Assembly: GCF_900078545.1 (NCBI RefSeq)
Contig: NZ_FLLS01000002.1
Location: forward strand, 372,001-436,000
From: Olegusella massiliensis
Lineage (GTDB): Bacteria; Actinomycetota; Coriobacteriia; Coriobacteriales; Atopobiaceae
DNA: 64,000 nt
Direction: 5' to 3'
The notes under the pieces were generated by a model. That model had not been told where the DNA came from, did no database searches, and saw only the letters and a list, made by a program, of their open reading frames with translations. Position numbers and translations under genes: made by a program. This document shows positions 2,893-47,817 of the stretch, piece after piece (positions within the stretch are counted from its first letter, which is position 1; each line of letters opens with the position of its first letter).

Positions 2893-2982
2893 GTTTCACC
2901 TTAGTCATGCATAAACAACAAAATGCCATCCTATTACATTACTATGAAGACGACGCTTGTATCTCAAGAGCTTGGAGCCCGC

Positions 2983-5448
2983 ATGCATCTCAAAAATTAC
3001 CTCTACCTGACTTGGATAGCTCTTGCTTCCTTCGTACTTTTCCTTTTCTGTTGTCGCCATTCTAGGCGACTACTAACTAAAGAAAAACAGCGAAGTAGTT
3101 TCGAGATGCTTGTTCTCCTTTCAATATTAGTTTTAGGCACAGCAACCATTCTTGGAAATCAAATCCTTGGTACAGCTAACCTTACTCTTGGCTTCAGAAG
3201 CAGCGCAAACGATACATTTGATCAATATATTCCTTACTATCTTGACATTATTCATAATGCACAAGCTGGAGCTTTGCCTTTTTGGTCTCATCATTTTGGC
3301 ATGGGATCAAGCTTCCTTGCCAATCAAGAATGGTTGATGGATCCGTTTAATCTTGTTTTAATCCCTCTTTGCCTTAGCTTTGGTGAAGAATTTCTTGCTC
3401 AAGCAATCGCCATTACCTTCGCCTGTCGTGTGCTCTGTGCTGGTTTTTTCTTCTCACATTTTTTGACTCGTTTTTGTTTAACTCCTCTTGCACGTATTTT
3501 TGGTGCTTCTAGCTATGCTTTTGCCGGCTACATCTTTACTGTGGGCAAGCATTATTTCTTTGGGACCGCTTGGGTACTACTGCCGCTTATAGTGCTCGGT
3601 CTCGAAGATCTCATGAGGCGCAAATCAGCTGGATCATTCGCACTTGTGAGCGTTACTACTGCAATTTTTATTTGTTTTAGTGTCTACTTTGCGTTTATGA
3701 CACTTATTTTCTCACCCATTTATGTTGCATTACGCCTTCTGGCCATAACTGAGGAAGGCAAGAAAGGGCATTATTGCCAGCGTTTCTTACTGTGTTCAGC
3801 ATCGGTGCTCACTGGCGTCTTATTGAGCGGAGTCATGCTTTTTCCAACTGCCTATTATATTATCGCCGAGACAAGCCGCGTAGGTGGAACAACGGCTTCA
3901 TCAAAGGGCACGGCCTTTAGTATGCTATCGAGCTTTATTTCACCTCATGGTATTGGTTTCATATTTAGCAGACTTATGGGTAGCGCACTTATAAGCGTGG
4001 GTACAAATTATCAATTTATGCCCAATAATAACGAACTAGAATTTTTTCAAGGTGGCTTAGGCTGCGGTGTATATATCTTATTAGGTCAATATCTCTATTG
4101 GATATACGGCCAGACAAGCATGAGACATCGCATTGCTACTACGCTTGGTTTGCTTTTTATTGCATTCTACTCATTTAACTTCTTTTTTCCCTCACTCATT
4201 ACAATATTTCGCTACCCCACCTACCGAGCCTCTCTCACAATAGATGCGATGCTTATTTGCGCAATGGCAATAGGACTTGAGAAAGGTTTTATTGAACGTC
4301 AGCCCGCACCTGTTCCACTCGGCCTCTCTATACTTTTCTCTGCCTTTATACTCACGTGGTCCTTATATAACACTATCAATTCCCGCTTGCAGTGCATGCT
4401 TTTTATTACGGTTCTGGCACTTTCAATACTATTAATCATCCTTTTCTTTAAAAAACAAACCTGGATTGGAGTACTTACCATAGGCCTCTGTGTGCTATTT
4501 ATTTCGAGTTCTCTCGTAGATTCCTTCTCAGAAATTAATCGCAATCCACGCATAGTGCAAAGCGATAAATTCCCGCCAGCTGCTAACCAAGCACTCAATA
4601 AGGACACAATAACTGCTCTATCAAAGTTACGGTCCCGTGACGATAGCTTCTATCGAGTGGAGCGCGATTTTCATAATCTGACAAAATGGAATGATGCCCT
4701 AAGTTTTAACTATGCAGGCATTTCTAGTTATAACAGTGCCGAGGATGGAGAACTGGGAGATTTCTTTAATCAGCTCTGGCCGGCAGCAATATCTCACCAT
4801 ACGAATAATTTTAGTTGTTATATCTTCCCTATAGACTCCACCAGCTCACGCATGATGGCTGTTACTGGCGTTCGCTATCTCATCTGCCAAACTCCACTGC
4901 CACCATACACAAGCTGGGCAAAGCAGATTGAAGAAGTTAATGGTTTGCATATCTATGAAATAAGTTTTGAGGGCAATACGGTAAGTCCACTCTATCTTAG
5001 GAGTTCCGCACTCAGCCAGTCGGACGCAAAGAAATTGAGTATTACACAGCGACAAGAAGCCCTCGATACCAGCATCATTGTAGAAGATGATCAGCTAGGC
5101 TTAGTTGATATCACTTCGAATCAACAAAAAATTGAAGCAGATGTACAGCTCAAATGTGCTAGTGATAATTCTATCAGTGGCATTATCGATACCAATAGGG
5201 GCGGAGTTGCTTGCCTTTCTATACCTCATACAAAAGGTTGGAATCTCACCCTTGATGGCAAGCCGTTAGAAATTTTCTCAGCAAATTATGGTTTTATTGG
5301 CTTTAATTGCCCAGCAGGCAGACATGTTCTCTACGCCTCCTATACCCCCGCCGGTCTCATTCCTGGAGTACTAACAAGCATTGCAGGAGCCATCTGCTCG
5401 GTCGCTTTCGTTGTTTACCTACATAAGCAAAGAGTTCGTTGTCGATGA
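2983..5448 (+). CDS. YfhO-family polytopic membrane protein (GT-C-like)
   Basis: This 821-residue protein has about a dozen hydrophobic segments and a soluble C-terminal region of about 200 residues before a last membrane helix. The FDQYIPYYLD and HFGMGSSF segments after the first helices, and the final GWNLTLDG...GFIGFNCPAGRH stretch, are hallmarks of the YfhO family (Pfam PF09586). Bacillus and Listeria YfhO-type proteins are linked to glycosylation of lipoteichoic or wall teichoic acid outside the membrane. GGAG six bases before the ATG at 2983 supports this start; an in-frame ATG at 2923 has no ribosome site. A paralogue lies at 38946-41630. The probable role is transfer of a polyprenyl-phosphate sugar onto a surface polymer (inference). 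Confidence 0.8.
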   Translation: MHLKNYLYLTWIALASFVLFLFCCRHSRRLLTKEKQRSSFEMLVLLSILVLGTATILGNQILGTANLTLGFRSSANDTFDQYIPYYLDIIHNAQAGALPFWSHHFGMGSSFLANQEWLMDPFNLVLIPLCLSFGEEFLAQAIAITFACRVLCAGFFFSHFLTRFCLTPLARIFGASSYAFAGYIFTVGKHYFFGTAWVLLPLIVLGLEDLMRRKSAGSFALVSVTTAIFICFSVYFAFMTLIFSPIYVALRLLAITEEGKKGHYCQRFLLCSASVLTGVLLSGVMLFPTAYYIIAETSRVGGTTASSKGTAFSMLSSFISPHGIGFIFSRLMGSALISVGTNYQFMPNNNELEFFQGGLGCGVYILLGQYLYWIYGQTSMRHRIATTLGLLFIAFYSFNFFFPSLITIFRYPTYRASLTIDAMLICAMAIGLEKGFIERQPAPVPLGLSILFSAFILTWSLYNTINSRLQCMLFITVLALSILLIILFFKKQTWIGVLTIGLCVLFISSSLVDSFSEINRNPRIVQSDKFPPAANQALNKDTITALSKLRSRDDSFYRVERDFHNLTKWNDALSFNYAGISSYNSAEDGELGDFFNQLWPAAISHHTNNFSCYIFPIDSTSSRMMAVTGVRYLICQTPLPPYTSWAKQIEEVNGLHIYEISFEGNTVSPLYLRSSALSQSDAKKLSITQRQEALDTSIIVEDDQLGLVDITSNQQKIEADVQLKCASDNSISGIIDTNRGGVACLSIPHTKGWNLTLDGKPLEIFSANYGFIGFNCPAGRHVLYASYTPAGLIPGVLTSIAGAICSVAFVVYLHKQRVRCR

Positions 5449-5482: not shown

Positions 5483-7303
5483 CTATGAAGTTTTTCTCGT
5501 TAGGCCAGGAAGACATACCCAGACTGGAGCAGAAAATATCAGCGGAGACATATAACGAAAGAGAACAACCGGACCAAGCATAAGGGTAATAAGTAAACCC
5601 AGACAAAGAGCGAGAGGGACAGCCATCTGTTTCTTTTGTTCGCATATTGCATGAGCGAGTACCAATAGCAATGCCCATACATAAAGTCCCGATTTACAAA
5701 TCTGAGCTAAGAGTGGCGTATGAACATAGGGCATCTTCCATCGCTGCTCATCTTTTGGGAATACCTTATCTCCAAATAATTTATCAAGCATCTGCTTATA
5801 TAGAGGAAACTTACTTTGTCGTTCAATGGTTATATAGTCAGAACCCGGAAGTGAAAAATTAGCATAGTCAATATAAGCATGAGCCATTTTGGCATCGTAA
5901 TACTTTATATCTGGATACCATAAGCCATAAGTTAGCTCAAGGTGAGCTAGGATATAACTGCGTGGATACTTCAATCCTAAATTTGCCCAATACCCTATAA
6001 AACTCTGCGGATTCGCGCCAATCAACTCTGTGTTAAGGTGTGCTTTATATTGATCTGAAATCCTATTGTCGCGAAAATAATTATGGGACGTGAGAAAACT
6101 CTCGGGCATATACGTATAAAGCTGCTGAAGCTCCTTCTCGGAAAGAGAATCTTTCTCATAGTTCCATACGCGCGCAAGTTGTGTAGCTGGCACGCTCATC
6201 ATTTCCGTAATAGTAGTATCTTTTTTTGCTCCCATTGAGCTCAATATCGGGCCGTGGAACAGCAAATAAGCTACACATGCCAGTGAAACAATAGAAAACA
6301 GCTTTAAACGCCACACTTTTGGCGATACAAAGGCAAGCATAACTAAAACAAACACTAAAGCATAAAACCCGTTGTTACGACACAGGCAGAGAAAAAGAAT
6401 CCAACATACCGTTCGAGCAGGATATTGCCAGGATTGCCAAAATTTCTCTGGCTCGTTGGTTGCTATAAAGAACAGCATGATGCACATTGCAAAGGCTGCC
6501 ATAAAGGGTGCATCTTGTAAAACAGAAATAGAAATGATGGCCAGACCCAAATTTAAGCAAAAGAATCCTGTACTCAATCCCAATACCCTATAGCCCATAC
6601 GGGTATTTAAAAAATTAAGAATGCGCCACACTACATAGAGAACAAAAGCGAGCTGCAACAGAGTGAGTGTAGCAAATCCCAATTCATACGTGCCAGTGAT
6701 ACTCCAGCTTGTATGAACAAAAAGATAAAAGAGCGCCTGGTAGGGAATAGACCATTTTGACTGTAATATACCGTGACTTATTGCTCGATACCATTCAGGA
6801 GAATCGGCCTCATAGATGCCTGGCCAGAGCGCAAGCCATGTAGCAAACCACACAATACATATCAGAATAAATGCCAGGTAAACATACTTTTTACGAGCGG
6901 GGCAATCTGTGCCTCCCCATTCGCTCATTAATTCCAATATGCATAGTATTAAAGGAAAGAAACTAAATGCATAAAGAAGGATATTTTCTAACACTAGTCT
7001 TAGACAAACAGATTTATCCTGCCAGATAAACTGAGTCCCTAAAGACATGAACAGAGAAAACACGACGCTTAAAACTACCGAAGAAAAAAGATATCTCCCC
7101 GTATGTTTTGTGATAAAAATACGTTTCCACAAAAAGAAGAATGCAAAACAGAGAATAGGCAGTACCAATGAACCTTGGATGCTTTTCTGAGCGGTATAAG
7201 ATGCAAGATAGCGAAGGACTCCGCAAGAGGATATCAGGGCAGAGAAAAGAATGAGAGCTGTCATCTTATGAAGTTCCACTCTATTCACTCTATAACTCTG
7301 CAT
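5483..7303 (-). CDS. DUF6020-type polytopic membrane protein, GT-C-like (last gene of the amino-sugar operon)
   Basis: This 606-residue protein has about 12 membrane spans. Conserved features shared with the two paralogues at 42342 and 45916 are WPGIYEADS after the first third, a CRNNGFY motif in a mid-protein helix, SVPATQLARV after it, and a large extracellular loop with NPQSFIGYW. An acidic residue in the first external loop (the ED of IYEAD) and an RNNG helix fit a GT-C transferase that uses lipid-phosphate sugars. It sits at the end of the minus operon that begins at 11349, three bases downstream of the ArnC-like gene, so it is the natural candidate for the enzyme that attaches the flipped amino-sugar. 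No strong ribosome site precedes the ATG at 7303; ATG 7264 is an alternative. The function is inferred. Confidence 0.75.
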   Translation of the reverse strand: MQSYRVNRVELHKMTALILFSALISSCGVLRYLASYTAQKSIQGSLVLPILCFAFFFLWKRIFITKHTGRYLFSSVVLSVVFSLFMSLGTQFIWQDKSVCLRLVLENILLYAFSFFPLILCILELMSEWGGTDCPARKKYVYLAFILICIVWFATWLALWPGIYEADSPEWYRAISHGILQSKWSIPYQALFYLFVHTSWSITGTYELGFATLTLLQLAFVLYVVWRILNFLNTRMGYRVLGLSTGFFCLNLGLAIISISVLQDAPFMAAFAMCIMLFFIATNEPEKFWQSWQYPARTVCWILFLCLCRNNGFYALVFVLVMLAFVSPKVWRLKLFSIVSLACVAYLLFHGPILSSMGAKKDTTITEMMSVPATQLARVWNYEKDSLSEKELQQLYTYMPESFLTSHNYFRDNRISDQYKAHLNTELIGANPQSFIGYWANLGLKYPRSYILAHLELTYGLWYPDIKYYDAKMAHAYIDYANFSLPGSDYITIERQSKFPLYKQMLDKLFGDKVFPKDEQRWKMPYVHTPLLAQICKSGLYVWALLLVLAHAICEQKKQMAVPLALCLGLLITLMLGPVVLFRYMSPLIFSAPVWVCLPGLTRKTS

Positions 7304-7306
7304 TTA

Positions 7307-8278
7307 CTAACCAACTTCTGAATGTCGAGGTTTAATCTTTTTCTCTGCAGGAAGGTTGACCGTATCATGAACTACATATTGTGGTGTTGAATTAACCGAA
7401 AGCACGATATTGCCCACGTACTCGCCAATCATCCCCAAAGAAAAAAGTATCATGCCAAAGAAGAATAGTAGTAAACAGATGATAGAGGCCCACCCCGCTG
7501 GCATATGAGGATCAGTCATTTTTTGAATGATAACGACAATTCCTGCAACAAAACCCACCACAACAAAAAACATGCCCATCCAAAAAACCATGCGGAGCGG
7601 GAGCTTCGTGTAATTAAAGTATGAAAGCCATAAGTTAATTAACTTCCTAAGGGTATAGCCAGAGCTTCCATATTCGCGCTGGTGATGTTTAACCGTCACA
7701 TTACCAATTCGAGTGGTCATACGAGTGAAGAGTGCATCTACAAAGGGATTGTAATTATGAAACTTAATCATCTGGCTTTTTATTTGGGATGTACACATCC
7801 AAAAACTTGACGTCTTCATATCTGCGGGTTGATCAAGCAGAATATTTCCCGTAACCTTATTGAGCCAACTCGAAAAACGCTTAATTGGACTTAACGAGGG
7901 TCTCTCTTCAAAGACACCATATACCACATCGTACTCACCACTTTCCATTGCATCAAGCAGTAAGGGAATTTGAGATGGGTGTGTCTGCAAATCATCATCC
8001 ATGCAAAGCACCAAATCTCCCTCAGCATAATTAAGCGCACACATTAAAGCACTGTGCTGACCAAAGTTACGCATGAGACAGATTCCGTGAACATTAGGAT
8101 GTGCAAGTGAAAGCTCGCAAATCTTGTTATATGTCTTATCGGGGGGATTGTCATTGACTAATATGAACTCACAGTCATACGTATGAGTTTTTTCAAACTC
8201 AGTCTGTGTCAATTGAACAACATCAGCAAGACTTTTCTCCGAATGAAAACAAGGCACTATAACTGAAACGAGCACACT
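7307..8278 (-). CDS. ArnC/GtrB-like polyprenyl-phosphate glycosyltransferase
   Basis: The N-terminal part is a GT2 domain (SVIVPCFHSEKS, then MDDDLQTHPSQIP, the DDDLQ signature of DPM1-like enzymes). Two C-terminal membrane helices around residues 225-300 complete the layout of ArnC, GtrB and related enzymes that load a sugar onto undecaprenyl phosphate. I chose the GTG at 8278 (323 residues, the length of ArnC) because an AGGGG ribosome site lies just upstream of it; a GTG at 8314 gives 12 extra residues. One oddity is that the usual DDGS loop reads NDNPPD. It lies between the aminotransferase and the DUF6020 gene in the same operon, so the expected product is undecaprenyl-phosphate amino-sugar on the inner membrane face. 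Confidence 0.88.
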   Translation of the reverse strand, partial: SVLVSVIVPCFHSEKSLADVVQLTQTEFEKTHTYDCEFILVNDNPPDKTYNKICELSLAHPNVHGICLMRNFGQHSALMCALNYAEGDLVLCMDDDLQTHPSQIPLLLDAMESGEYDVVYGVFEERPSLSPIKRFSSWLNKVTGNILLDQPADMKTSSFWMCTSQIKSQMIKFHNYNPFVDALFTRMTTRIGNVTVKHHQREYGSSGYTLRKLINLWLSYFNYTKLPLRMVFWMGMFFVVVGFVAGIVVIIQKMTDPHMPAGWASIICLLLFFFGMILFSLGMIGEYVGNIVLSVNSTPQYVVHDTVNLPAEKKIKPRHSEVG

Positions 8279-8317
8279 ATCCCCCTGAACCAGTATTCGT
8301 AATCTTGGAAACACTCA

Positions 8318-9454
8318 CTAGCGATTATGGTAAAAAGACGAGACTGCAGTAACAATTGCCCGTCTATCTTCATCAGCTAAATTGAAATACATGGGTAGAC
8401 GCACCAAACGCTCACTTTCACGTGTCGTAAACTCATCTTTTCCATGAAAACGACCAAACATCCTGCCTGCCGGGGCTGAATGTAAAGGAATATAGTGAAA
8501 AGTTGCTTGAATATTTCGCTCCTTAAGGTAGGAAATTAATGCAGTTCTTTCGCTAAGGTCAGCGCATTTAATATAAAACATATGTGCATTATGAACACAC
8601 TCATTTGGAATATGAGGGAGTTCGATATCTCCCTTTTTGGCAATTGGCTGCAACTTTTCCCAGTAATAATTCCAAGTATTAAGTCGATTATCATTAATTC
8701 TATCTGCAAACTGAAGCTGACCCCAGAGATACGCAGCATTGATATCACTAGGAAGATAACTCGATCCTCGGTCTACCCACGTATACTTATCAACTTGGCC
8801 GCGGAAGAAACGCTGTCGATTGGTCCCTTTTTCACGAATAATTTCTGCACGGTCATTAAAAGCAGAATCATTAATAACTAGAGCACCACCTTCACCCATA
8901 GAGTAATTTTTAGTTTCATGAAAAGAGTAACAACCAAAAGTACCGATGGTGCCCAATGCACGACCTTTATAACTACTCATGACCGCTTGCGCCGCATCTT
9001 CTACAACCAAAAGATTATATTTGCTTGCAATGTCCATAATGCTATCCATTTCGCAAGCAACGCCAGCATAATGTACTGGCACGATAACTCGCGTGCGATT
9101 GGTAATGGCGGCTTCGATTTTTGTCTCGTCGAGATTCATGGTGTCAGGACGGACATCAACAAACACTAAAGTTGCACCAACCATCTGAAAGGCGGTAGCT
9201 GTAGAAGAAAAAGTAAAACTTGGAAGTATTACTTCATCACCAGGTTGAAGATTGCACAGAATAGCAGCCATTTCAAGCGCGGTAGTACCCGAAGTGGTCA
9301 GCAGTGTTTTTTGAGCTTTAAAACGCTTTTCAAGCCACGCATGACAACGCTTAGTGAACGGACCATCACCACTAATTTTATGATTATCCTCCACAGCTTC
9401 ACGCACAAAAGCCATCTCACTACCAATAAAAGGCGGTACATTAAAATTAATCAT
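8318..9454 (-). CDS. WecE/RffA-like sugar-nucleotide aminotransferase (DegT/DnrJ/EryC1 family)
   Basis: This is a 378-residue PLP enzyme that resembles WecE (RffA), which makes TDP-4-amino-4,6-dideoxy-galactose from TDP-4-keto-6-deoxy-glucose with glutamate. The SGTTAL phosphate-binding segment (about 55-60), VEDAAQA with the cofactor aspartate at 153, and SFHETKNYSMGEGG with the Schiff-base lysine at 182 are all intact. The start is the ATG at 9454, seven bases after GGGAG; it overlaps the stop of the preceding small gene as TAATG, which implies translational coupling. The TDP-sugar precursor enzymes (RmlA, RmlB) are not in this window. An ArnB-type UDP-4-keto-pentose substrate is possible but the sequence looks closer to WecE. 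Confidence 0.88.
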   Translation of the reverse strand: MINFNVPPFIGSEMAFVREAVEDNHKISGDGPFTKRCHAWLEKRFKAQKTLLTTSGTTALEMAAILCNLQPGDEVILPSFTFSSTATAFQMVGATLVFVDVRPDTMNLDETKIEAAITNRTRVIVPVHYAGVACEMDSIMDIASKYNLLVVEDAAQAVMSSYKGRALGTIGTFGCYSFHETKNYSMGEGGALVINDSAFNDRAEIIREKGTNRQRFFRGQVDKYTWVDRGSSYLPSDINAAYLWGQLQFADRINDNRLNTWNYYWEKLQPIAKKGDIELPHIPNECVHNAHMFYIKCADLSERTALISYLKERNIQATFHYIPLHSAPAGRMFGRFHGKDEFTTRESERLVRLPMYFNLADEDRRAIVTAVSSFYHNR

Positions 9455-9810
9455 TACGCTACTCCCAGTGAATAAATGGCAATGCCGCACATGATAAGAA
9501 ACAATGCTACGTACTTCCGCAGATTCATTTTCTCATGAAAGATTGTAACGCCAAAAATAGTTACATAGATATAGCTGGTAGCCTCCAATATAGGACCCAT
9601 TGAAAGAGGGATACCTCTATATGCAAGAATCGACATGATAGTTGACCCCACAAAAATAGTGTATCCCCCAATTACAAGCGGATTTAGATATTCTTTTATC
9701 GTTGAGCTGTACTGCTTCATTGCAGATTTCTTGAGTAACACCTGTGCCACTGCTGCAATAAACACCCCAAAAAGCAATGCAAAGACATAGCGTAGGTCAG
9801 CCTTCTCCAT
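9454..9810 (-). CDS. small EamA/SMR-type membrane protein, probable half of a lipid-sugar flippase (ArnE/ArnF-like)
   Basis: This 118-residue protein has four membrane helices, a QVLLKKSA motif after helix 1 and GPILEATSYIYV in helix 3, as in small EamA/SMR proteins. It is the second of two adjacent four-helix genes, the same arrangement as arnE-arnF, whose products flip undecaprenyl-phosphate aminoarabinose across the membrane. A GGAAGG site precedes the ATG at 9810, only two bases after the stop of its partner, and its own stop overlaps the aminotransferase start. A drug-efflux pair such as EbrAB is the alternative, but the position between an aminotransferase and an ATP-grasp gene, with an ArnC-like gene in the same operon, favours a lipid-sugar flippase. 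Confidence 0.75.
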   Translation of the reverse strand: MEKADLRYVFALLFGVFIAAVAQVLLKKSAMKQYSSTIKEYLNPLVIGGYTIFVGSTIMSILAYRGIPLSMGPILEATSYIYVTIFGVTIFHEKMNLRKYVALFLIMCGIAIYSLGVA

Positions 9811-9812
9811 AG

Positions 9813-10193
9813 CTATACCTTCCCCTCACCTGCAGTATCTTCGTCATAGGTATCTGCTGCTGCATAGAGAATGACACCTATAAGCACGACAAGTCCGCCA
9901 ATGAGCTTCAGAATACTCATATTCTCGTGAAAAATAAGGGCTCCCCAGATAAGACCCCATACTACAGTAACCGCCCTATTTGCATATGCAGTAATAAGAG
10001 GAAGATGTTTGATAATCTGTTGCCAACCAAGAGCATAGATGCCCAAAATGCCAATAATGCCGATATAACACAACATAAAAGAAGAACTGGGAAAGGCAAG
10101 ACCTGAGGCAACCTTACTCAGCACCGTGCTAAGAGAGTAAAACATCAATAGCAGTTGCAGCGAAAGATAAACCTTTATCTTAGATTTGGTCAT
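9813..10193 (-). CDS. small EamA/SMR-type membrane protein, probable flippase partner (ArnE/ArnF-like)
   Basis: This 126-residue protein has four predicted membrane helices and a short acidic tail. WGLIWGALIFHENMS in the third-to-fourth helix region is the standard EamA signature, and the HE(K/N)M motif is shared with its partner at 9454. The two lengths (126 and 118) are close to ArnF and ArnE. It starts four bases after the ATP-grasp stop, with GAAAGG ten bases upstream of the ATG. It probably forms a heterodimer with the next gene product in the cytoplasmic membrane. The direction and substrate of transport are inferred from the neighbours only. Confidence 0.75.
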   Translation of the reverse strand: MTKSKIKVYLSLQLLLMFYSLSTVLSKVASGLAFPSSSFMLCYIGIIGILGIYALGWQQIIKHLPLITAYANRAVTVVWGLIWGALIFHENMSILKLIGGLVVLIGVILYAAADTYDEDTAGEGKV

Positions 10194-10197
10194 CAGC

Positions 10198-11349
10198 TTA
10201 ATGCCTTTCAGCAGGTAAATAGGGAATTAAATCCTCCAAATGAGAGGACTTTAAAATATAAAACCCATGTCGAGAGGCACTATCAACAATATCGATGGAC
10301 ATATCTCCGATGGGGCTAACAAAGTCAATTAACTCAGGATATGTTGTCTGAATAGTATTCAAGACATCAATATCGTTCGAATCAAAAATAAAGCGAATCA
10401 TGGCATATGCTGCCGCATGCGAAGGAACTAAACGAGGCTTCTCTCCTAAAGCACAATCAATTACAGCTCCCACAAAATCAATACCTGTAGAAAGCGGGAC
10501 TAAGTCACTCCCTATACAGTCCCCACCCATACGACTACCAATCTCAACAATCTTAATTTCACCAGAGGGCAGCAACATGAGTTCTGAGTGAGAGGCGCCG
10601 TAGCGTACTCCCAGACTTTCAAGCGCATGGGGCACGATCTGCTTAATTTTCCTATAAATCTCTTCAGAAACTGGTGCAGGCTCAAGATGACCTGTCTCTA
10701 TAAAATGAGGTGCTCCAGACGTAAACTTCTTTGTCAAGGCAAGGAAATGATGCACGCCTTCCCAAGAAACATACTCAACGCTAAACTCCTCACCCGCCAT
10801 GTACTCTTCGATTAAAGCTTCTTTTGCAAAGGAAGAATCTATGGCAAGCTTTACCGCAGCTTGAAGAGCAGTCGTGTCAGCAAAATCCAATTTAGTAATA
10901 CTACGACTTCCAGAGCGATCTACAGGCTTAACTATAAGTGGATATGCCATTCCAAAATCTGATATCCGTTCGTCAGCGCGGATGAGCCGACTCTTAGGAG
11001 AAGGGTCTCCATGCTGTTCGAATGTTTGCCGCATGAGATGCTTGTTTGTAGATTTTTCTACTGTTGCAACAGAATTTGCCACCAATCCCAAACGCTCAGC
11101 AACTTGCGAAACGGTAATATTTCCCAAGTCAGAACCAATGGTGCAAATTCCATCTACACCAACCTTACGACAAATATCGCAAATTTCGTCAATTTCAGTA
11201 ATTGAAATCGGATAGTAAAAATCAGCTGTTTTCTCACCGATTGAGCCATCACGCCAAGCAAACACATGAGTTTCTAAACCGCGCTCTTTTGCTTTAAGGA
11301 TAAGGGGATTTTGGAAATCTGAAGCTCCAATAATAGCAATCCTTTTCGG
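10198..11349 (-). CDS. ATP-grasp ligase, first gene of the amino-sugar operon
   Basis: The N-terminal pre-ATP-grasp domain begins KRIAIIGAS. The ATP-grasp domain follows, with PLIVKPVDRSGSRS as the phosphate-binding loop near residue 140, EEYMAGEEFSVE, and KIVEIGSRMGGD with the metal-binding Glu/Asn-type segment. The fold is that of CarB/PurK-like acid-amine or acid-thiol ligases, which activate a carboxylate with ATP. I chose the ATG at 11349 (383 residues) because the family starts with this strand; an ATG at 11400 adds 17 residues that do not look conserved. As the lead gene of the operon it may join an acid or amino acid to the amino group made by the neighbouring aminotransferase, which is an inference. 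The true substrate is unknown. Confidence 0.8.
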   Translation of the reverse strand, partial: PKRIAIIGASDFQNPLILKAKERGLETHVFAWRDGSIGEKTADFYYPISITEIDEICDICRKVGVDGICTIGSDLGNITVSQVAERLGLVANSVATVEKSTNKHLMRQTFEQHGDPSPKSRLIRADERISDFGMAYPLIVKPVDRSGSRSITKLDFADTTALQAAVKLAIDSSFAKEALIEEYMAGEEFSVEYVSWEGVHHFLALTKKFTSGAPHFIETGHLEPAPVSEEIYRKIKQIVPHALESLGVRYGASHSELMLLPSGEIKIVEIGSRMGGDCIGSDLVPLSTGIDFVGAVIDCALGEKPRLVPSHAAAYAMIRFIFDSNDIDVLNTIQTTYPELIDFVSPIGDMSIDIVDSASRHGFYILKSSHLEDLIPYLPAERH

Positions 11350-11467
11350 CATACGAATACACGGATCCTTCCAACAAAATCTGCGAACACAGCACAGCAT
11401 CTTCCATGTCCATCATATGGAGTGACACTCATAGCAAAATCATCTATACACTACCCGGGAAGAATCT

Positions 11468-17424: not shown

Positions 17425-18579
17425 ATGAAACTTTTGATAGGTGGAGATTTCGCCCCTACCAAACAAAATTTTGATCTTTTTGAGCAAGGCGATGCTGAGA
17501 CACTCTATAGCTCTGAGCTTTTGGATTATCTCAAAGCATTTGACTATCGTGTTTTTGACTTTGAGAGCGTATTTGAGGGCAAGGGTACTCTTATTGAAAA
17601 ACATGGACCCCTTATTACCACACCGGTATCCTGTCTTCCCGGCATTAACGCTATCAATCCCAATCTCTTTGTATTGGCAAATAACCACAGTAATAACTTG
17701 GGCGCAGAAGGCATCCAGCACAGTTTTGACATTTTTGAGCAAAACAATATTGCCCACGTTGGAGCAGGTGTAAATCTAGCCCAAGCCCGCGAACCCTATA
17801 TTCTCGAATATGAAGGATTAAAAATTGGTTTTTATGCCTGTGCCGAGCATGAATTTAATGCTGCGAGCGACCAAAAAGCAGGCGTCAATCCCTATGACCC
17901 CCTAGAGAGCTTCGATGATATTCGCCAGGCAAAGACCCTCTGTGACTATCTCATCGTTTTTTATCACGGTGGCATGATTGAATTCCGCTATCCCCTACCT
18001 ACTCAACGTCGGGTATTCAAAAAATTTGTCGATGCTGGTGCTGATCTTGTAGTGGGACAGCATACCCACTGCATCGGCTGTGCTGAAAGCTACCAAGGAA
18101 AAACGCTTTTATATGGACAGGGTGATTTTCTCTTTGCGCGTCCTACCCTCAATGAATATCGCTACTCAGGACTCCTACTCGAAGTAACTATTGATAAAGA
18201 TGGCCTGAGAGTTGATTACAATCTGCGTATCAAGCCGCAAAACACCATTCGCTTGGCTAGCGATACAGAAAAAACTGAAATTCTTGGGGCATTTCAGCAG
18301 CGCGGACAAGAAATCCAAGACCCGGCGCGTTATGCAGAGATTTATCGCACGCGTCTTGAGGCGCGCAAGGGCTTCTACCTTGATAGACTTCTTGGTAAAT
18401 TTGGGCGTTCCCTTATCTATGCTGGCCTTAACAAGCTTACAAGTGGGCGCTATCGCACATGGAAGATGCGCCGACGCTTTGACAAAACCGACTGGCTTAT
18501 TTTAGATAACTGGGTAAGCTGTGAGACACATCGGGAGCTCTTCCGTGACATGATTCAAAGTGAATGGCGAGATCGATAA
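17425..18579 (+). CDS. CapA/PgsA-family metallophosphoesterase-like protein
   Basis: This 384-residue protein belongs to the PGA_cap family (PF09587). It shows GGDFAPT at the N-terminus, FDFESVF near 50, LANNHSNNLG near 93, YHGG near 188 and GQHTHC near 212, the metal-ligand motifs of the calcineurin-like fold. CapA proteins take part in poly-gamma-glutamate capsule assembly, but many homologues sit in other polysaccharide clusters. There is no N-terminal membrane anchor, unlike Bacillus CapA, so it may act in the cytoplasm. AAGGGA lies a few bases before the ATG. Its stop overlaps the start of the next gene (TAATG), so the two are translationally coupled. No CapB/CapC ligase gene is seen here. 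Confidence 0.85.
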   Translation: MKLLIGGDFAPTKQNFDLFEQGDAETLYSSELLDYLKAFDYRVFDFESVFEGKGTLIEKHGPLITTPVSCLPGINAINPNLFVLANNHSNNLGAEGIQHSFDIFEQNNIAHVGAGVNLAQAREPYILEYEGLKIGFYACAEHEFNAASDQKAGVNPYDPLESFDDIRQAKTLCDYLIVFYHGGMIEFRYPLPTQRRVFKKFVDAGADLVVGQHTHCIGCAESYQGKTLLYGQGDFLFARPTLNEYRYSGLLLEVTIDKDGLRVDYNLRIKPQNTIRLASDTEKTEILGAFQQRGQEIQDPARYAEIYRTRLEARKGFYLDRLLGKFGRSLIYAGLNKLTSGRYRTWKMRRRFDKTDWLILDNWVSCETHRELFRDMIQSEWRDR

Positions 18580-19787
18580 TGAAAGAAGTCATACCCCCTT
18601 CTAAATGTACCGGGTGCGGGGCATGTTCCATTGCCTGTCCTGTTTGCACTATCACGATGGATAGCGCTATCACGATGCAAAACACTCCTGATGGGTTTTT
18701 GTATTCGGTTATAGATCAGGAAGCCTGCATTGACTGCAAACGCTGCCGTAAGGTTTGTCCCGTCCTCAATCCGCCTGAAAAAATGCTCCCAAAGACCGTT
18801 TTTGCAGCACAGTCTCCAAGTACTACTGTGCTCCAGCATTCTGCCTCAGGTGGTGCCTTTTTTGAGCTCGCAACAGCATTTTTAGCTGAGGGGGGCAGCG
18901 TCTATGGCGCCGCCATGAAGATTGAAAATTCGCAGGCGGATATTTTCCATCTTGCTATTACCGAACAAGAAGATTTGACTCAATTGCAGGGATCAAAATA
19001 TGCACAGGGACGGTCATATCCCAGCTTTAAGGAAATTCGTGCAAAGTTGATTCAGGGTGAGCAGGTGCTCTTCTCTGGCTTGCCTTGTCAGGTTGCAGGG
19101 CTTTATGGCTATCTCGAAAAAAAATATGACACACTTACCACGGTAGATATTTTTTGCCACGGAAATACGTCACTACAGCACCTTAATTGCTATCTCTCGC
19201 ATCTCAAAGAAATCTATCATGACGATATCGATGAATATATCTTCCGTGATAAAGAACGCGGCACTGGCTACAAACCAAAGGTCACACTCAAATCCGGAAA
19301 AACCATCCGCCAGACGACATTCCAGGAAGCCTACTGGTATCTCTTCCAAAATTCCAAATTCTATCGTGAATCGTGCTACAGCTGTTCTTATGCCAATCCC
19401 AAGCGTATCTCGGATATCTCTATTGGTGATTTTTGGGGCATCGAACAAGTTCGCCCCGAACTTTTATCCAGCCAGGGCGGCAGACTCAACGATCACTATG
19501 GCATCTCAGCAGTGCTTGCAAACACCGAAAAAGGTAAAGCACTCATACAAGCAACACGTCTTGTTTTAGAAGACTCTGCTATTGACGAGGTCGCATCTCA
19601 CGGTGCTGCCATTCGTGAGCCCCAATCAGCTCCAGAGGACCGTGCCCAGGTACTGGAAATGTTTCGTGAGAAAGACTTTGCCCAAGCTAAAGCCTATGCA
19701 AAGCGTCAACTTGGCGTGTACTATTATCTTGACCTACTTTCTGACACGCAGCTCGTTAAACTCGCAAAAAAGATTCTCCGAACTTAG
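18579..19787 (+). CDS. FrhB-like Fe-S protein (F420 hydrogenase/dehydrogenase beta-subunit family)
   Basis: This 402-residue protein opens with two 4Fe-4S ferredoxin motifs, Cys10-13-16-20 and Cys50-53-56-60, followed by the FrhB N domain (HSASGGAFFEL) and the C-terminal FrhB domain with SGLPCQVAGL and SDISIGDFWG, which adds further cysteines. Members of this family occur in many exopolysaccharide clusters, usually next to pyruvyl-transferases, with an undefined redox role. Here the partner is CapA; no pyruvyl-transferase is visible. The start is the ATG at 18579 that overlaps the CapA stop. It ends directly against the convergent DUF6541 gene with no gap. Confidence 0.88.
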   Translation: MKEVIPPSKCTGCGACSIACPVCTITMDSAITMQNTPDGFLYSVIDQEACIDCKRCRKVCPVLNPPEKMLPKTVFAAQSPSTTVLQHSASGGAFFELATAFLAEGGSVYGAAMKIENSQADIFHLAITEQEDLTQLQGSKYAQGRSYPSFKEIRAKLIQGEQVLFSGLPCQVAGLYGYLEKKYDTLTTVDIFCHGNTSLQHLNCYLSHLKEIYHDDIDEYIFRDKERGTGYKPKVTLKSGKTIRQTTFQEAYWYLFQNSKFYRESCYSCSYANPKRISDISIGDFWGIEQVRPELLSSQGGRLNDHYGISAVLANTEKGKALIQATRLVLEDSAIDEVASHGAAIREPQSAPEDRAQVLEMFREKDFAQAKAYAKRQLGVYYYLDLLSDTQLVKLAKKILRT

Positions 19788-21848
19788 TTAATCTGTTAGT
19801 GCATCAATTTTGTACAATCTCATATCACCTTCGTCGAGAACTACTTTAAACCCCGGTGTTTCATTAGTAAGCGATACAAAACCTTGCCAATCTCTACTAT
19901 GAAACTTATCAAAGAGACTTGATTTAGCATACTTGGCATCAAAATTTTTATCTAAAAGCAGAAGGTACTGTGCACCTGTTGTTTTTACTGCGTTTTGCAC
20001 TTCACGATTACTCGCATACTCATTAATCTTGTTTGAAATAAGTTCACTCTCAGGAGTATTTCCTCCTCCAAATTGACGATAATAGGTATTGATATCACTC
20101 AAGGGATAAGCGAAGGCACTACCATCACCAGGTACATTCAGTACAAGATTATCCCCGGTAATACTTTTAACCTTAACAAGAAAATCACGCTCATCTTGAT
20201 CCAAAATTGAGTAGGAAATAGCATTAAATGTATATGCTCGGTTTCTTGTATATCCAAATGCAGTCGAAAGAGTGACATCCTCATACGGGATTGTGATATT
20301 GGGATAAAAAATCATTACAAACGAAACCACTAAAAATATACAAGGTATTAGGAAGCATTTAAAATGGCCTTGCACATCATGAACAGCGAGCTGCCCAAAC
20401 AAATACTGAGCTACTCGCACCATTGACTCCATACCAAGTGCTGCAAGAGGCATCGCCAAAATACAAGCAATAGACGCAAGACGATTCCAGTCGGTATACC
20501 AAAATCCCGTCATATACTGCTTGAAGGAACCATCAAGAGAAGCTGAAATAATAAAGAGCGTGCAAAAAAGAAAGAAGCTTCCACTTATCCAAAGATACTT
20601 TCTACGGTAAAAACTATACAGGACTCCAAGCCATACAAACAAAGCAAGTACAGGCTGGGCAGGCACATCTTTGAAGCCCAAAAATAAAGCTTCTATGGCC
20701 GTAGCGCGAACGGGAGCATAGGCATAATGTATATACTGGGCTACAGAATTAACTAAGGGAATTTCGTAGCAAACTTGCCATGCTACCATGACGAAAAATA
20801 GGAATACCCCAACTGCTACAAATGCACCAAGCCAAGAATTGTGTCTCATATTATTTGTGCATCCACGCCATATTACCCATATGAGATAAGGAATAAGGGC
20901 AACTCCTAAAGTAAAAGCCATGCTTGGATGCGCAAAAACAAGAGCGAGCAATCCAATGACAAATATAGTAATCTTTCCAAACTCATATTTTTTTTGAAGG
21001 GCATCCTCAAACACCATAATGCATACTGCAAGAAATGCTGGAAGCAAAACCATGCCAAAGAAAAACGCATTCTTCGCCTGAGGGATAAGGATGTGCCACG
21101 GAAACACTCCAAAGGCAAGTGGAAGAAGAGCTCCTAAGCGCAAGGCAAGTGTCTTTTCCTTAAGTGTAGTACGCAAAAATAAATATATTCCTGCAGTAAA
21201 ACAAGGTACAAGCAAAATGGTATTTATGACATTGGCACCAAAAGCTGCATTTTGTTTTGTGAAACCCGTAATCATTGCCGCGAGCACATGCCATGCCGCT
21301 GGATAATAAGGCTTTCCCATAATGGATGCATGGGATACATCCTCAAATAAAGAGGAACTAAAAATTGACCACTCCCCTGACTTCACATAACGCCATACCA
21401 GATTTAGGTGCACGGAATTGTCTGTCTTCCAAGTAAAAGATGCCGGCCCATCCAAAGGTCGTATGTAGTAAAACACGCACACAACAAGCGCAATTACAAG
21501 GTAGGGAGCAAAGATTTTGAGCTCTTCTATAAAGCCGATCGACACAGAGCGACTTGCGGCATGATGAGAAACGCTTATCGATTTCTGTTGTGTATGTCGC
21601 AGGTATACACCACCTATATAAATAAGTAGAGAAACGATAATGGAGGGAAGAGCAACGCTTGCCCATGAGGCAAATACACCGAGCCTGACAAAAATGATGC
21701 CCAGCAAGGTATATATCGTTGTTGTAATAAGGGGTGCAAATGCAAAACAAAAGAAGGGGTCATAATTACATGCCCTTGCAAAAAGGTAACCTGGTAAGCA
21801 AACAAATATAAAGCATACCGGCAACGCAAGTAAAAACTGAAGCCACAT
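19788..21848 (-). CDS. DUF6541-type polytopic membrane protein (GT-C-like)
   Basis: This 686-residue protein has about 14 membrane spans and a soluble C-terminal part of about 140 residues. LPGYLFARA in the first loop, the PLDGPASFTWKTDNSVHLNLVW extracellular segment (DNSVH-type acidic/His loop), and YYPAAWHVLAA are features of the DUF6541 family, which is common in Coriobacteriia, Bifidobacterium and relatives and resembles GT-C glycosyltransferases. AGGGGG seven to eight bases before the ATG at 21848 sets the start. A strong terminator separates it from the upstream lectin gene, so it needs its own promoter or depends on read-through. Possible role: attaching a lipid-linked sugar outside the membrane (inference). 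Confidence 0.72.
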   Translation of the reverse strand: MWLQFLLALPVCFIFVCLPGYLFARACNYDPFFCFAFAPLITTTIYTLLGIIFVRLGVFASWASVALPSIIVSLLIYIGGVYLRHTQQKSISVSHHAASRSVSIGFIEELKIFAPYLVIALVVCVFYYIRPLDGPASFTWKTDNSVHLNLVWRYVKSGEWSIFSSSLFEDVSHASIMGKPYYPAAWHVLAAMITGFTKQNAAFGANVINTILLVPCFTAGIYLFLRTTLKEKTLALRLGALLPLAFGVFPWHILIPQAKNAFFFGMVLLPAFLAVCIMVFEDALQKKYEFGKITIFVIGLLALVFAHPSMAFTLGVALIPYLIWVIWRGCTNNMRHNSWLGAFVAVGVFLFFVMVAWQVCYEIPLVNSVAQYIHYAYAPVRATAIEALFLGFKDVPAQPVLALFVWLGVLYSFYRRKYLWISGSFFLFCTLFIISASLDGSFKQYMTGFWYTDWNRLASIACILAMPLAALGMESMVRVAQYLFGQLAVHDVQGHFKCFLIPCIFLVVSFVMIFYPNITIPYEDVTLSTAFGYTRNRAYTFNAISYSILDQDERDFLVKVKSITGDNLVLNVPGDGSAFAYPLSDINTYYRQFGGGNTPESELISNKINEYASNREVQNAVKTTGAQYLLLLDKNFDAKYAKSSLFDKFHSRDWQGFVSLTNETPGFKVVLDEGDMRLYKIDALTD

Positions 21849-21873
21849 ATGCACGCCCCCTATCACTTAATCC

Positions 21874-21930: not shown

Positions 21931-24576
21931 CTAGTAGGACAGAGCTGTAGTCCCACGAGAAATATTATCGAATATCCACTTGGCATTTCCAATTTCAAGA
22001 CGGCAGCAAGCACCAGATTGACGAGCGCCAAGCCTATTTACATAAGGGTACAGTGTATGCGTTTTCGCATAATAAAGCCGTGAATGGAAAATCAGTCCAT
22101 TGGGGAAATAGGTCCAGTAGTACTCACCGGTCTCATACACAATGCCATTTGGTCCGATATCTCCGTAATAATCCTTTCTGCCTGTACTTCTAAACAGGCC
22201 TTTGGGCGTAGGAGATCCAGGCTTGCCAACAGCACATAGGAAACTCTTATGAGGCGCCCACGTACCATTCTCAAGGTGGTATACATTGACGTAAAAACGG
22301 CTCTGATCAAGAGCAATAAGGTATTTGGTACCACTCGATAGATTATTAATTCTACGATAGCTAGCGTAAGTAGTATATTGCCACCTGCTCCTCTTGCCCC
22401 GCTCATTGACATATACATAGTTGCCGTTACTCAAATCCCAGTGGCTTGTATCTTGGAACGTCCACTTCTGGGCTGCTGTATTGTTGCTTTCCCATTGATG
22501 AATATTAGCCCCATCCCTCTTGGAGGCGCCCGCAATATCCATCATTAAACCGGATCCAAGATTCCTAAAGCTAATCCAGCCACCGTCAGCAATTTCAGCT
22601 TTCCACATTTGGGCAGGAGTAGCGTTGCTTTTGTATTGGTTAACGTTGGCGCCATTAGCTCCAGAGCCGTGATATACATCGACCATCTTGTCAGAGTTGA
22701 CATTCTTGAGAGTAATGCAGCCATTACCTACATTGGTAATTTGGAATTTTTGACTATCATAGTTTTTGAATCTACCAGCAGTGATATTACCACCGTTGCG
22801 ATTGTCAGTACGACCAGCACCCAATACGGTACCAAGCTGAGAAACAACCTTATAGGTGCCATTGGCAATGAGCTGAGCGGCATCAAAGATAAAGTTTTGA
22901 GATGCGGATCCATTCGCAGCAGCCAAAGAGAGTGTGCTGCCATCGCCTGTCATGTTCAAAGCCTTGTTGGTATCAGCGGCATGGTAAAGCGAAAGCTGAG
23001 TACCATTCCAACCAATAACCCATTGATTGTTTCCATCAGCCACAGTAGAACTGCTGCCATTTTGAATAATACGACCACTTACAGGATCGTACGTTACCCA
23101 GCCGCCCGAAGAGGCGGTACGAATGCGATAGAGACCCTCATTTGCTTCAATGAGTTTCACCTCAAAACGCTGGGCACGGGTGCCATTAGAATTATACATT
23201 CTTACCATTGCGCCAGATTTATTTGACCCACTCTGGACATCAAGAACTTTATGAGGATTCAAGAGATTGCTAATCGTATAAATACCCTCATCAAGAAGAG
23301 ATACTTTATCTAAACTAAAGTTTTGTGCAGCAGAATTATTTGCCACAAAGCCTTGAAGGTTGGTGCCACTACGTGCAAGACCGCCACTAATATCCAACAC
23401 AAGACCCGTAGCCTTATTGACAAGGCAGCAACTACCATCAGTATTACCGCGTAGTGCCCACTTTTGATTGTCTTGCCCTCTCTTGGTATCTTGGTACACG
23501 TTAGATCCGGCAACCACACTGTTCTTCATAGTGAGAACCTTGCCACTACCCAACAAATTAAGATAATAGTAGCCCTCACCTGCCGTCTGGAGATATATCT
23601 TTTGAGCCTGATCACCAGATACCCGACGCGCGAGCTGAGCATTTGCTCCATTTGATTTGGAAGAGCCTTTAATGCCAACCAAACAGCTAGAATTAGCTGT
23701 AGCCTTGATAAGATATGCACCGTTCTTCTTATCAACATCGCTCGGAGCTACTTCAGGATGTGCTTTATAGAAATAAAAGCGCTGCGCCAGCGTATCATTT
23801 GATTTATAGAGCCAAATATTTGACTCATTTTCAACCTTACCACCATAGACATCAAGTACTTGCCCCTCATTAAGCTTAGAGACGATAGAATAAGCGCCAT
23901 TGGCAAGTCTCTTTAAGAACCAGAGTTGAGCATCAGAATCTACCTGCTCTTGGCAAATCTCAATATTGTTTTTTTCTTGTGTGTTAACCTGTAACATCAA
24001 CTTAGTACCATGTTTGGCAATGGAGTAATATCCGTCACCCTTGTAGGTCAAATCCCATTGCTGAGCTTCAGAATTATTATTCTCGTAAATCTGAACATTT
24101 GCATGGTCATGCTCTTTGTTATGCCAAACATCAATAACCTTGGAAAGGCCCTTGTAATTTCCTGAACCAATAACATAGGTGCCATTGGCAAGTGGTTGAG
24201 ATTGAGGAGTCTCACGGCGCGCGGTTGCCATGTGACGTGGAGCCGTAATCTCTTCTTCGTTGGGCTCCGTTGGAGTAACTACACTAGCTTCAGGATTCTT
24301 TTGTTCCTCTACAGAAACTTCCTCTTCCTTCTTATCCTCCGAAGAGTTTTGGGCTTGGTCTTCTCCGCCCATAGGAGAATCTGCATTGAGATCTGCAGGT
24401 CCATTTGTATCAGGAGCTGCAGCCGTCATTGCTCCTTCGTTTGGAGCGCTTGCAACAATAGGCGATACCTCAGAACTGCCTTCACCATCTGCCGCAAAAG
24501 CAACAACAGGTGCAGTGGCACCCAAAGCAAAGGCAAGGCCGCAGACTACGATGGAATTCTTTAGACTTGTATGCAT
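21931..24576 (-). CDS. secreted ricin-type lectin repeat protein with C-terminal L,D-transpeptidase domain
   Basis: This is an 881-residue protein. Residues 1-28 are a signal peptide (basic start, hydrophobic core, cleavage near AFA). Residues 29-130 are an acidic, Pro/Ala-rich linker. Residues about 131-710 hold twelve repeats of about 48 residues with the pattern G.Y.I...VLDV.G....GANV..Y.SN..AQ.W, equal to four ricin-B beta-trefoils. Residues about 750-881 form a YkuD-type L,D-transpeptidase (TPKGLF, FHS with His831, and a SGACCR catalytic motif with Cys857), which cross-links or anchors on peptidoglycan. The start at 24576 has AGAGGAT upstream. Downstream is a strong terminator. Its place inside a wall-polymer locus suggests that the lectin part binds the polymer made here. 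Confidence 0.9.
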   Translation of the reverse strand: MHTSLKNSIVVCGLAFALGATAPVVAFAADGEGSSEVSPIVASAPNEGAMTAAAPDTNGPADLNADSPMGGEDQAQNSSEDKKEEEVSVEEQKNPEASVVTPTEPNEEEITAPRHMATARRETPQSQPLANGTYVIGSGNYKGLSKVIDVWHNKEHDHANVQIYENNNSEAQQWDLTYKGDGYYSIAKHGTKLMLQVNTQEKNNIEICQEQVDSDAQLWFLKRLANGAYSIVSKLNEGQVLDVYGGKVENESNIWLYKSNDTLAQRFYFYKAHPEVAPSDVDKKNGAYLIKATANSSCLVGIKGSSKSNGANAQLARRVSGDQAQKIYLQTAGEGYYYLNLLGSGKVLTMKNSVVAGSNVYQDTKRGQDNQKWALRGNTDGSCCLVNKATGLVLDISGGLARSGTNLQGFVANNSAAQNFSLDKVSLLDEGIYTISNLLNPHKVLDVQSGSNKSGAMVRMYNSNGTRAQRFEVKLIEANEGLYRIRTASSGGWVTYDPVSGRIIQNGSSSTVADGNNQWVIGWNGTQLSLYHAADTNKALNMTGDGSTLSLAAANGSASQNFIFDAAQLIANGTYKVVSQLGTVLGAGRTDNRNGGNITAGRFKNYDSQKFQITNVGNGCITLKNVNSDKMVDVYHGSGANGANVNQYKSNATPAQMWKAEIADGGWISFRNLGSGLMMDIAGASKRDGANIHQWESNNTAAQKWTFQDTSHWDLSNGNYVYVNERGKRSRWQYTTYASYRRINNLSSGTKYLIALDQSRFYVNVYHLENGTWAPHKSFLCAVGKPGSPTPKGLFRSTGRKDYYGDIGPNGIVYETGEYYWTYFPNGLIFHSRLYYAKTHTLYPYVNRLGARQSGACCRLEIGNAKWIFDNISRGTTALSY

Positions 24577-24694
24577 AGATAGTATCCTCTCGGCACAAGC
24601 GAAAACAATCACGTATCTAGAACAATATGCTCAGTAATACTATTACGAAGCATAGTTGGAACTTACTTTTTTCTAGCATTTTAACATAAGGAAA

Positions 24695-26851: not shown

Positions 26852-26852
26852 C

Positions 26853-27278
26853 TTATTTCTGAAGTCGTCCTTTTACATCAGTAGTAGAAATTCCCGGCGT
26901 ACGATCAAGATATACAACATCGCAGCATTTTTTGAGATACTCAAAGCGATTAGAACCCGCCCAATCACCACCCATAACAACGGTGTCAATGTGATAGTCC
27001 TTCACATCACTCAGTTTTTGTTCCCAGTTTTTCTCAGGAATAACAAGGTCAACATAGCGGATAGCTTCAAGCATTTCTTTGCGGGTCTCGTAATCATAAA
27101 ACGATGTCTTGCCCTTGCTCTGGTTGAATTCATCAGTAGAAAGGGCAACTACAAGATAATCCCCAAGTGCCGCAGCGCGACGCAAAAGACGAATGTGTCC
27201 ATAGTGAAGGAGATCAAAAGTTCCATAAGTCAATACACGCTTGAGTCCGGTATATTCCCCGTTTCCTTCAAAATACGG
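26853..27278 (-). CDS. tagD: glycerol-3-phosphate cytidylyltransferase
   Basis: This 141-residue nucleotidyltransferase has LTYGTFDLLHYGH (HxGH motif at 26-29), a middle KxxxFxxYExR segment in which the Lys is part of GKTSFYDYETRKE, and the final RTPGISTTDVKGRL motif, which holds the RTxGISTT signature of TagD/GCT enzymes. It makes CDP-glycerol from CTP and glycerol-3-phosphate. The start at 27278 follows AAGGAGAG; an upstream in-frame codon at 27308 adds 10 residues. It is divergent from the second glycerophosphotransferase gene at 27406 and co-directional with the TagF-like gene that follows one base later. Confidence 0.95.
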   Translation of the reverse strand, partial: PYFEGNGEYTGLKRVLTYGTFDLLHYGHIRLLRRAAALGDYLVVALSTDEFNQSKGKTSFYDYETRKEMLEAIRYVDLVIPEKNWEQKLSDVKDYHIDTVVMGGDWAGSNRFEYLKKCCDVVYLDRTPGISTTDVKGRLQK

Positions 27279-27365
27279 CATGAGAGCAACTCTCCTTGTC
27301 ATAGACAATCAAATCAATGCAAATATTCTACCACCCATTTCCACCTGCTTTATTTGTTCGCCTAT

Positions 27366-27375
27366 ACTTATAAGT
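27366..27375. promoter_or_regulatory. short palindrome between divergent tagD and tagF-like genes
   Basis: ACTTATAAGT is a perfect 10-base palindrome in the 127-base gap between tagD (start 27278, minus) and the glycerophosphotransferase (start 27406, plus). It overlaps TATAAG, which could be a -10 element for the plus-strand gene, although no good -35 was found. It may be an operator or simply AT-rich chance. Confidence 0.22.
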
Positions 27376-27405
27376 ACTATGGATATTTCTCCTAAAGGGA
27401 CTGAC

Positions 27406-28722: not shown

Positions 28723-28730
28723 GTCGATTT

Positions 28731-41682: not shown

Positions 41683-42341
41683 TATCTAGCCCCCGATTAA
41701 CTGCGGTTGATTTTCATAGTTAACCGAACAGCCAGCTTCAGTCGAGCGTTTCTCATGATAAACGCAACACTGTAAAGGTCGTCTCTGGAAGGTGTGTTGA
41801 TGTTTTGCCTGCTTGAGATGAACGCCTTTGGTGTTTCGATGAGCCTGAGAACAGAGTTATCCATCCCCTCGGAGCCACTTCTCAAAGTGAGCCGAACGGG
41901 TGGGAAGAACGCTTATTACGGATATCTTTTCTACTTAGATATAGGTTTACTTCCTCTCTTGAGATGTGCTTCATTGATAAGGTGAACAGTGAGATCAAGT
42001 TCATCTATCGGAATCTCCGTAACTCCTAGGTAGTCAAGAAGATGTTTTGCAAGATCTTTGTGTGACGCTTTAAGCATTCGGATAGGACTTAAAGATCCTA
42101 AAGACGGTCTGGGTTCTGCGTTCACATGACTCATAATAAGGAGCAATCCTCAGCGGTAAGACTACCAAAGCTCATGCTTTTTATAAGTTGAATGGAATCC
42201 TCCTTAAGACTTAGTAATAAATCTAGTTGTCATCTAAACCACTGGGGATACCATTATGTTTAGTCATATATACCAAGTTATACTGACTTCTATAAGTTTT
42301 TATCTTGCACTGGAGTCTAGACTCGGAGAAGGAGCATTTTG
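41683..42341. other. gene-poor spacer, possibly with a decayed mobile-element fragment
   Basis: This stretch of about 660 bases has no gene I can name. On the minus strand a 71-codon frame (42146-41931) reads NAEPRPSLGSLSPIRMLK and later DELDLTVHLINEAHLKRG, which loosely resembles the last part of IS30-like transposases. A second minus frame (41885-41697) has no recognised family. Both lack ribosome sites and intact family domains. The plus side carries the leader of the DUF6020 gene at 42342. Confidence 0.35.
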
Positions 42342-47769: not shown

Positions 47770-47817
47770 TACCCCACTCCTTAACAACCTAACACTATCT
47801 AAGCAGTCATCTGCTCA

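Follow-up and report, generated by a model that had tools for sequence, protein, structure and literature searches.

Gene organization of the cluster

The 64,000-nucleotide stretch of the Olegusella massiliensis genome (1.81 Mb) analysed here, hereafter the window, carries at positions 5483–11352 six close-packed minus-strand genes, the products of which are candidates for making an amino-sugar, flipping it across the membrane and attaching it to the surface of this Atopobium-like host, in a manner resembling the Arn pathway of Enterobacteria. In the reading order of the minus strand, the cluster opens with an ATP-grasp carboxylate-amine ligase of 384 residues (11352–10198, with an ATG at 11352; Pfam ATP-grasp_4, 68 bits), followed by two small EamA-type membrane proteins of 126 and 118 residues, putatively the two halves of a flippase, referred to here as EamA-126 (10193–9813; Pfam EamA, 22.8 bits, under the cut-off of 28.2) and EamA-118 (9810–9454; 29 bits, above the same cut-off). 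Next come WecE, a dTDP-4-amino-4,6-dideoxygalactose (dTDP-Fuc4N) transaminase of the DegT/WecE family (9454–8318; 378 residues), an ArnC-type glycosyltransferase of family 2 (GT2) with C-terminal membrane helices (8275–7307; 322 residues; Glycos_transf_2), which is a putative polyprenyl-phosphate sugar transferase, and a DUF6020 polytopic protein, a candidate GT-C transferase (7303–5483; 606 residues; PF19484, 72.8 bits, cut-off 28.3).

The intergenic gaps measure 2–4 bases, save for a one-base overlap between the WecE ATG and the EamA-118 stop and for 42 bases upstream of the GT2 gene. The start of the latter is placed at a GTG (position 8275) preceded by a G-rich stretch, which yields both the 42-base gap and the length of 322 residues; ArnC of Escherichia coli likewise has 322 codons. 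The original prediction delimited the set at 11349 and gave gaps of 2–39 bases or overlaps; the six genes, their domains and the tight packing stand, whereas the ATG of the ATP-grasp gene lies just beyond that end and the spacing has to be corrected to the values given above. An Rfam scan of the window produced no match.

The activated sugar and its putative ligase

The aminotransferase scores 627.3 bits against NF008687 (cut-off 375) and 619.5 bits against TIGR02379 (ECA_wecE; cut-off 434.85), whereas the ArnB and PseC models remain below their cut-offs (for the ArnB model NF008658, 199 bits versus 631). Its closest solved structure, 4piw, is a WecE-type dTDP-4-keto-6-deoxyglucose transaminase (E 5e-166), and rmlA and rmlB, both above cut-off, are found elsewhere in the same genome. 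Because the enzyme passes the WecE models and fails those of ArnB and PseC, has this structure as its nearest relative and is accompanied in the genome by RmlA and RmlB, the sugar of the operon is most likely dTDP-Fuc4N, in agreement with the 4-amino-4,6-dideoxy-sugar that had been predicted.

Among solved structures, the ATP-grasp protein matches the L-amino acid ligase BL00235 best (1e-24); next come a protein bearing the annotation phosphoribosylglycinamide synthetase and, more weakly, BacD. Given this kinship with amino-acid ligases and the lack of an acetyltransferase in the cassette, the enzyme may couple an amino acid or another carboxylate to the 4-amine of the sugar, and its best match suggests an N-aminoacyl sugar as the product. 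Our literature search retrieved no paper that combines ATP-grasp, an amino sugar and polyprenyl phosphate. A gene resembling pyridoxal phosphate-dependent ornithine/arginine decarboxylases recurs near WecE (L099, 4510–5754, and about six other WecE loci) and might provide the substrate of the ligase.

The putative lipid carrier and the EamA pair

Among solved structures, the GT2 enzyme is closest to ArnC (9hwj, 4.8e-40), as expected from the original prediction, and then to GtrB sll0501, whereas its scores against the NCBIfam models of PgfS and ArnC (156 and 147 bits, respectively) are under the cut-offs (529 for ArnC NF007986). It appears to be a membrane-linked GT-A enzyme of the ArnC/GtrB kind with C-terminal hydrophobic helices, and a predicted polyprenyl-phosphate sugar synthase.

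EamA-126 and EamA-118 represent two distinct conserved subfamilies, the former with the conserved motif YA.gWQQ.iKR.PLt. In hhalign comparisons, the probability is higher for ArnE than for EmrE in both cases (90.6 versus 53.8 for EamA-126 and 94.1 versus 11.3 for EamA-118). Transporters of the small multidrug resistance (SMR) type need a membrane-embedded glutamate in the first transmembrane helix (E14 of EmrE); no conserved glutamate is present in the first helix of either EamA subfamily, as read from the sequences and not from a joint structure alignment. Because both proteins resemble EmrE less than ArnE and have no SMR glutamate, the pair is probably a flippase for a lipid-linked sugar, which agrees with the earlier proposal of an ArnE/ArnF-like pair unlike drug-efflux SMR proteins. 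The two proteins look ArnE/ArnF-like in their working, yet they are not classed as ArnE or ArnF, their curated scores being below cut-off.

Conservation and gene linkage in Coriobacteriales

The survey covered 391 genomes of the order, in which 62 loci, picked by WecE, were inspected; family assignments rest on sequence, and the linkage statistics treat genomes as independent, an assumption that shared ancestry contradicts. The identical six-gene order, followed by a convergent YfhO gene, is shared by Atopobium sp. oral taxon 810 (L009), with 76%–92% identity; the nearest relative in the search, a genome of the same genus as that of the window (G213), has WecE. WecE and EamA-118 are each present in 77 of the 391 genomes and occur together in 64 (Fisher p 7e-47, for genomes that are not independent); where one contig holds both (51 genomes), the distance between them has a median of about 4 kb and a maximum of 48 kb. 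In 27/62 loci, the EamA pair is no more than 8 kb away from WecE, in every case on the strand of WecE and in the order 126–118; of these 27 loci, 26 also contain a GT2 gene and 26 an ATP-grasp gene. Because the same order is kept in oral taxon 810, and WecE, the EamA pair, GT2 and ATP-grasp recur jointly in 25/62 loci, the operon arrangement is not a matter of chance; conservation of gene order in other genomes, on which the original prediction had made itself depend, is thus borne out.

The ATP-grasp gene follows the same trend. Its close type is associated with the EamA pair (15/27 loci with the pair versus 3/35 without it; p 7e-5), and a homologue lies within 12 kb of WecE in 37/39 WecE genomes, with 48 of the 56 homologue copies falling within that distance. 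RmlA and RmlB homologues occur in 15 and 18 of the 62 WecE loci, respectively. Most of the 14 loci around EamA pairs distant from WecE contain a GT2 or ArnC-like gene, often together with RmlA/RmlB-like and DegT-type aminotransferase genes; one of the loci with the pair away from WecE (L237) encodes RmlB, RmlA, the EamA pair, a 61% identical ATP-grasp protein and an ArnC homologue. A search of the phylum for EamA-118 gave a single weak match outside the order.

A candidate transmembrane glycosylation pathway

We favour, with a probability of roughly 0.62, the reading that the six genes constitute a cassette that resembles Arn, is based on WecE and serves transmembrane glycosylation with a Fuc4N unit, with a surface polymer as its target. 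RmlA and RmlB, encoded elsewhere, would provide dTDP-4-keto-6-deoxyglucose, which WecE would aminate to dTDP-Fuc4N; the ATP-grasp ligase would link the 4-amine to a carboxylate, probably an amino acid, and the ArnC-type GT2 would move the sugar onto undecaprenyl phosphate. An EamA-126/EamA-118 heteromer would then, like ArnE/ArnF, flip the lipid-linked sugar to the outer side; its placement on a surface polymer from the surrounding large polysaccharide or teichoic-type locus would fall to a GT-C enzyme, be it DUF6020, the adjacent YfhO or both. Of this scheme, the sequences themselves establish what WecE is, that GT2 is related to ArnC, and that the EamA proteins form a pair linked to WecE; the substrate of the ligase, the flipping by the pair, the action of DUF6020 and the acceptor are predictions.

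The DUF6020 protein is a plausible candidate for the final GT-C transferase. D167 is conserved in all 34 DUF6020 members compared and D264 in nearly all of them. D167 directly follows a hydrophobic segment (139–164), the N-terminal flank of which is the more positive, consistent with a location in an early extracytoplasmic loop, where GT-C enzymes carry an acidic residue; D264 aligns with a conserved Asp in PMT and with an Asp in E. coli ArnT, and the HHP motif of the DUF6020 family aligns with the HPP of PMT. Both ArnT and PMT depend on their acidic residues. With match columns set by a 50%-gap rule, hhalign gave values of 45 for PMT_2, 23 for PMT and 18 for ArnT, versus 0.1 for both the major facilitator superfamily (MFS) and Wzx. 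Individual DUF6020 members weakly match PMT and PMT_2; the PMT_2 profile matches 2/36 DUF6020 and 0/30 MFS proteins, and the PMT_2 Pfam model matches one DUF6020 protein of the window genome at 5e-4, under cut-off. Sequences of the PDB retrieved with the DUF6020 profile were G-protein-coupled receptors and an antibody only, which we took as chance matches, and an hhalign score of 64 between DUF6020 and YfhO, covering only 39 columns, was not counted as evidence. DUF6020 is mentioned in no paper of the library that we searched. Two DUF6020-type genes lie elsewhere in the window, at 42339–44270 (plus strand) and 45916–47787 (minus strand), the former missed by hmmscan and found by the genome search.

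Several observations weigh against the pathway as drawn. The ATP-grasp proteins are diverse (45%–61% identity among orthologues and 22%–35% among relatives), so that another substrate is possible; the hidden Markov model (HMM) matches of the EamA proteins are weak (26 bits against an ArnE cut-off of 92, and 20.4 and 19.6 bits against an ArnF cut-off of 99); and the EamA pair is 12–48 kb distant from WecE in a dozen genomes. For DUF6020, all hhalign values are below 50, and the PMT profile matches none of 36 DUF6020 proteins. The cassette member has KWS in place of the family HHP and sits on a long branch together with the copy of oral taxon 810 and one other. Of the 62 WecE loci, only three, two of them in this genus, have DUF6020 at a distance of 8 kb or less. 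The AlphaFold model, built from four sequences, is unusable (mean predicted local distance difference test, pLDDT, 42.8; predicted template modelling score 0.36), and a Foldseek search with this low-confidence model, which returned no match at E<0.001, was not used. The proposed analogy of DUF6020 to ArnT thus retains the support of the acidic residues and of a weak profile likeness to PMT, PMT_2 and ArnT, whereas the model is too poor to compare, the gene is seldom near the module outside the genus and WecE is more commonly accompanied by YfhO.

The most serious competing explanation accepts the pathway and assigns the last step to the convergent YfhO (2923–5448, plus strand; Pfam YfhO, 204.9 bits) or to another GT-C enzyme of the locus, with DUF6020 transferring, for example, another sugar. 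We consider this a genuine, if less probable, possibility, and YfhO as good a candidate for the final transfer as DUF6020. YfhO homologues are within 8 kb of WecE in 38/62 loci, YfhO is an experimentally supported GT-C enzyme in Gram-positive systems (PMC8035078), and four further DUF6020 matches, two in the window and two elsewhere in the genome, lie outside the cassette. Conversely, it is DUF6020, and not YfhO, that resides inside the operon, at a spacing of 3 bases and in an order kept in oral taxon 810; DUF6020 is also near the EamA pair in two other loci (L227 and L238), and YfhO is on the opposite strand.

We regard it as improbable that Fuc4N enters a polymer backbone in the cytoplasm via ordinary glycosyltransferases, with GT2, EamA and DUF6020 serving a different sugar and the operon merely grouping surface-glycan genes. 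Such an arrangement would suit the window, a large glycan locus that encodes numerous GT2 and GT4 enzymes as well as a Wzx-type flippase, and 13 of the 77 WecE genomes have no EamA-118 match; however, WecE, the EamA pair and GT2 co-occur tightly and close together across many genomes, and EamA pairs without WecE nearby are mostly located beside other aminotransferase or ArnC-like genes. The idea that the pair is an SMR-like exporter unconnected with lipid flipping can draw on the HMM matches of SMR families, which are weak and about as large as those of ArnE/F, and on the EmrE value for EamA-126, but is very unlikely in view of the better fit of ArnE to both proteins, the absence of a membrane-embedded glutamate at the SMR position and the fact that the two proteins form separate subfamilies, which always occur as a pair in the same order beside polyprenyl-phosphate GT2 genes.

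Relationship to known systems

The favoured Fuc4N cassette shares with the Arn system of Enterobacteria (ArnBCADTEF) a DegT-class 4-aminotransferase, an ArnC-type GT2, an ArnE/ArnF-like small membrane pair, a polytopic transferase candidate and the organization as a single operon. It differs in having WecE and dTDP-Fuc4N instead of ArnB and UDP-Ara4N (Ara4N, 4-amino-4-deoxyarabinose), an ATP-grasp ligase without the formylation–deformylation by ArnA and ArnD, DUF6020 in place of ArnT, and an acceptor other than lipid A. By Pfam, the cassette and the genes closest to it contain neither ArnA nor ArnD, in a search that did not extend to the remainder of the genome, and homologues of the E. coli proteins were found in 1/62 (ArnA) and 0/62 (ArnD) WecE loci. 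Judged by its gene content, the cassette falls outside the Arn system, because the tests for ArnB, ArnA and ArnD all fail.

Gram-positive bacteria possess multi-component transmembrane glycosylation systems, such as CsbB/GtcA/YfhO, GtlA/GtcA/GtlB and GtsABC, and there is support for a role of the YfhO GT-C family in glycosylating the wall of such bacteria (PMC8035078). Like these systems, the cassette combines a predicted GT-A polyprenyl-phosphate-sugar synthase with membrane helices, a putative small flippase and a polytopic GT-C candidate, with a surface polymer as the probable acceptor; it differs from them in that its flippase candidate is an ArnE-like EamA pair and not of the GtrA or Wzx type, that its 4-amino-sugar is a dedicated one and that it has an amino-acid-type ligase and DUF6020. 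The WecE/WecD/WecF branch of enterobacterial common antigen has in common with it the WecE equivalog producing dTDP-Fuc4N, whereas the cassette is devoid of a WecD-type acetyltransferase and of WecF, in place of which it has an ATP-grasp ligase together with a polyprenyl-phosphate GT2. Finally, the three-component pentofuranose systems (GT136; PMC11127046) also involve a polyprenyl-phosphate sugar, a small four-helix transporter similar to ArnE and EmrE and a GT-C enzyme, but the sugar, the synthase and the GT-C family are different.

The surrounding locus

Three genes of the CDP-glycerol glycerophosphotransferase type (24695–29891) suggest a teichoic-type or glycerol-phosphate polymer at the locus. 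At lower window coordinates, a protein of 893 residues (21931–24612, minus strand) shows a wall-associated domain combination that is unusual, with several ricin-type lectin repeats and, at the C terminus, a YkuD L,D-transpeptidase domain, and a DUF6541 polytopic protein is encoded at 19788–21866 (minus strand), with a related cluster near WecE in about nine loci. A PGA_cap capsule-type gene overlaps a gene of the F420-hydrogenase-beta/ferredoxin type (17425–19787, plus strand), and a protein of 1366 residues (34660–38760, plus strand) contains four matched GT2 stretches.

Implications

At its most extensive, the interpretation would be that Coriobacteriales decorate a surface polymer with N-aminoacyl-Fuc4N made by WecE and the ATP-grasp ligase and flipped by an ArnE/F-like EamA pair, with attachment in this genus by DUF6020 as the founder of a new GT-C family, a combination that we hold to be doubtful as a whole; as the original prediction pointed out, a DUF6020 protein acting as an ArnT analogue would, if true, be new. 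The cassette would provide a Gram-positive lineage of oral and intestinal bacteria with an Arn-like route to amino-sugar decoration, and it gives DUF6020 and the recurring EamA pair a testable function. The aminoacylated Fuc4N that is suggested here is possibly a charged surface group, which could influence the interaction of these bacteria with their hosts and with antimicrobial peptides.

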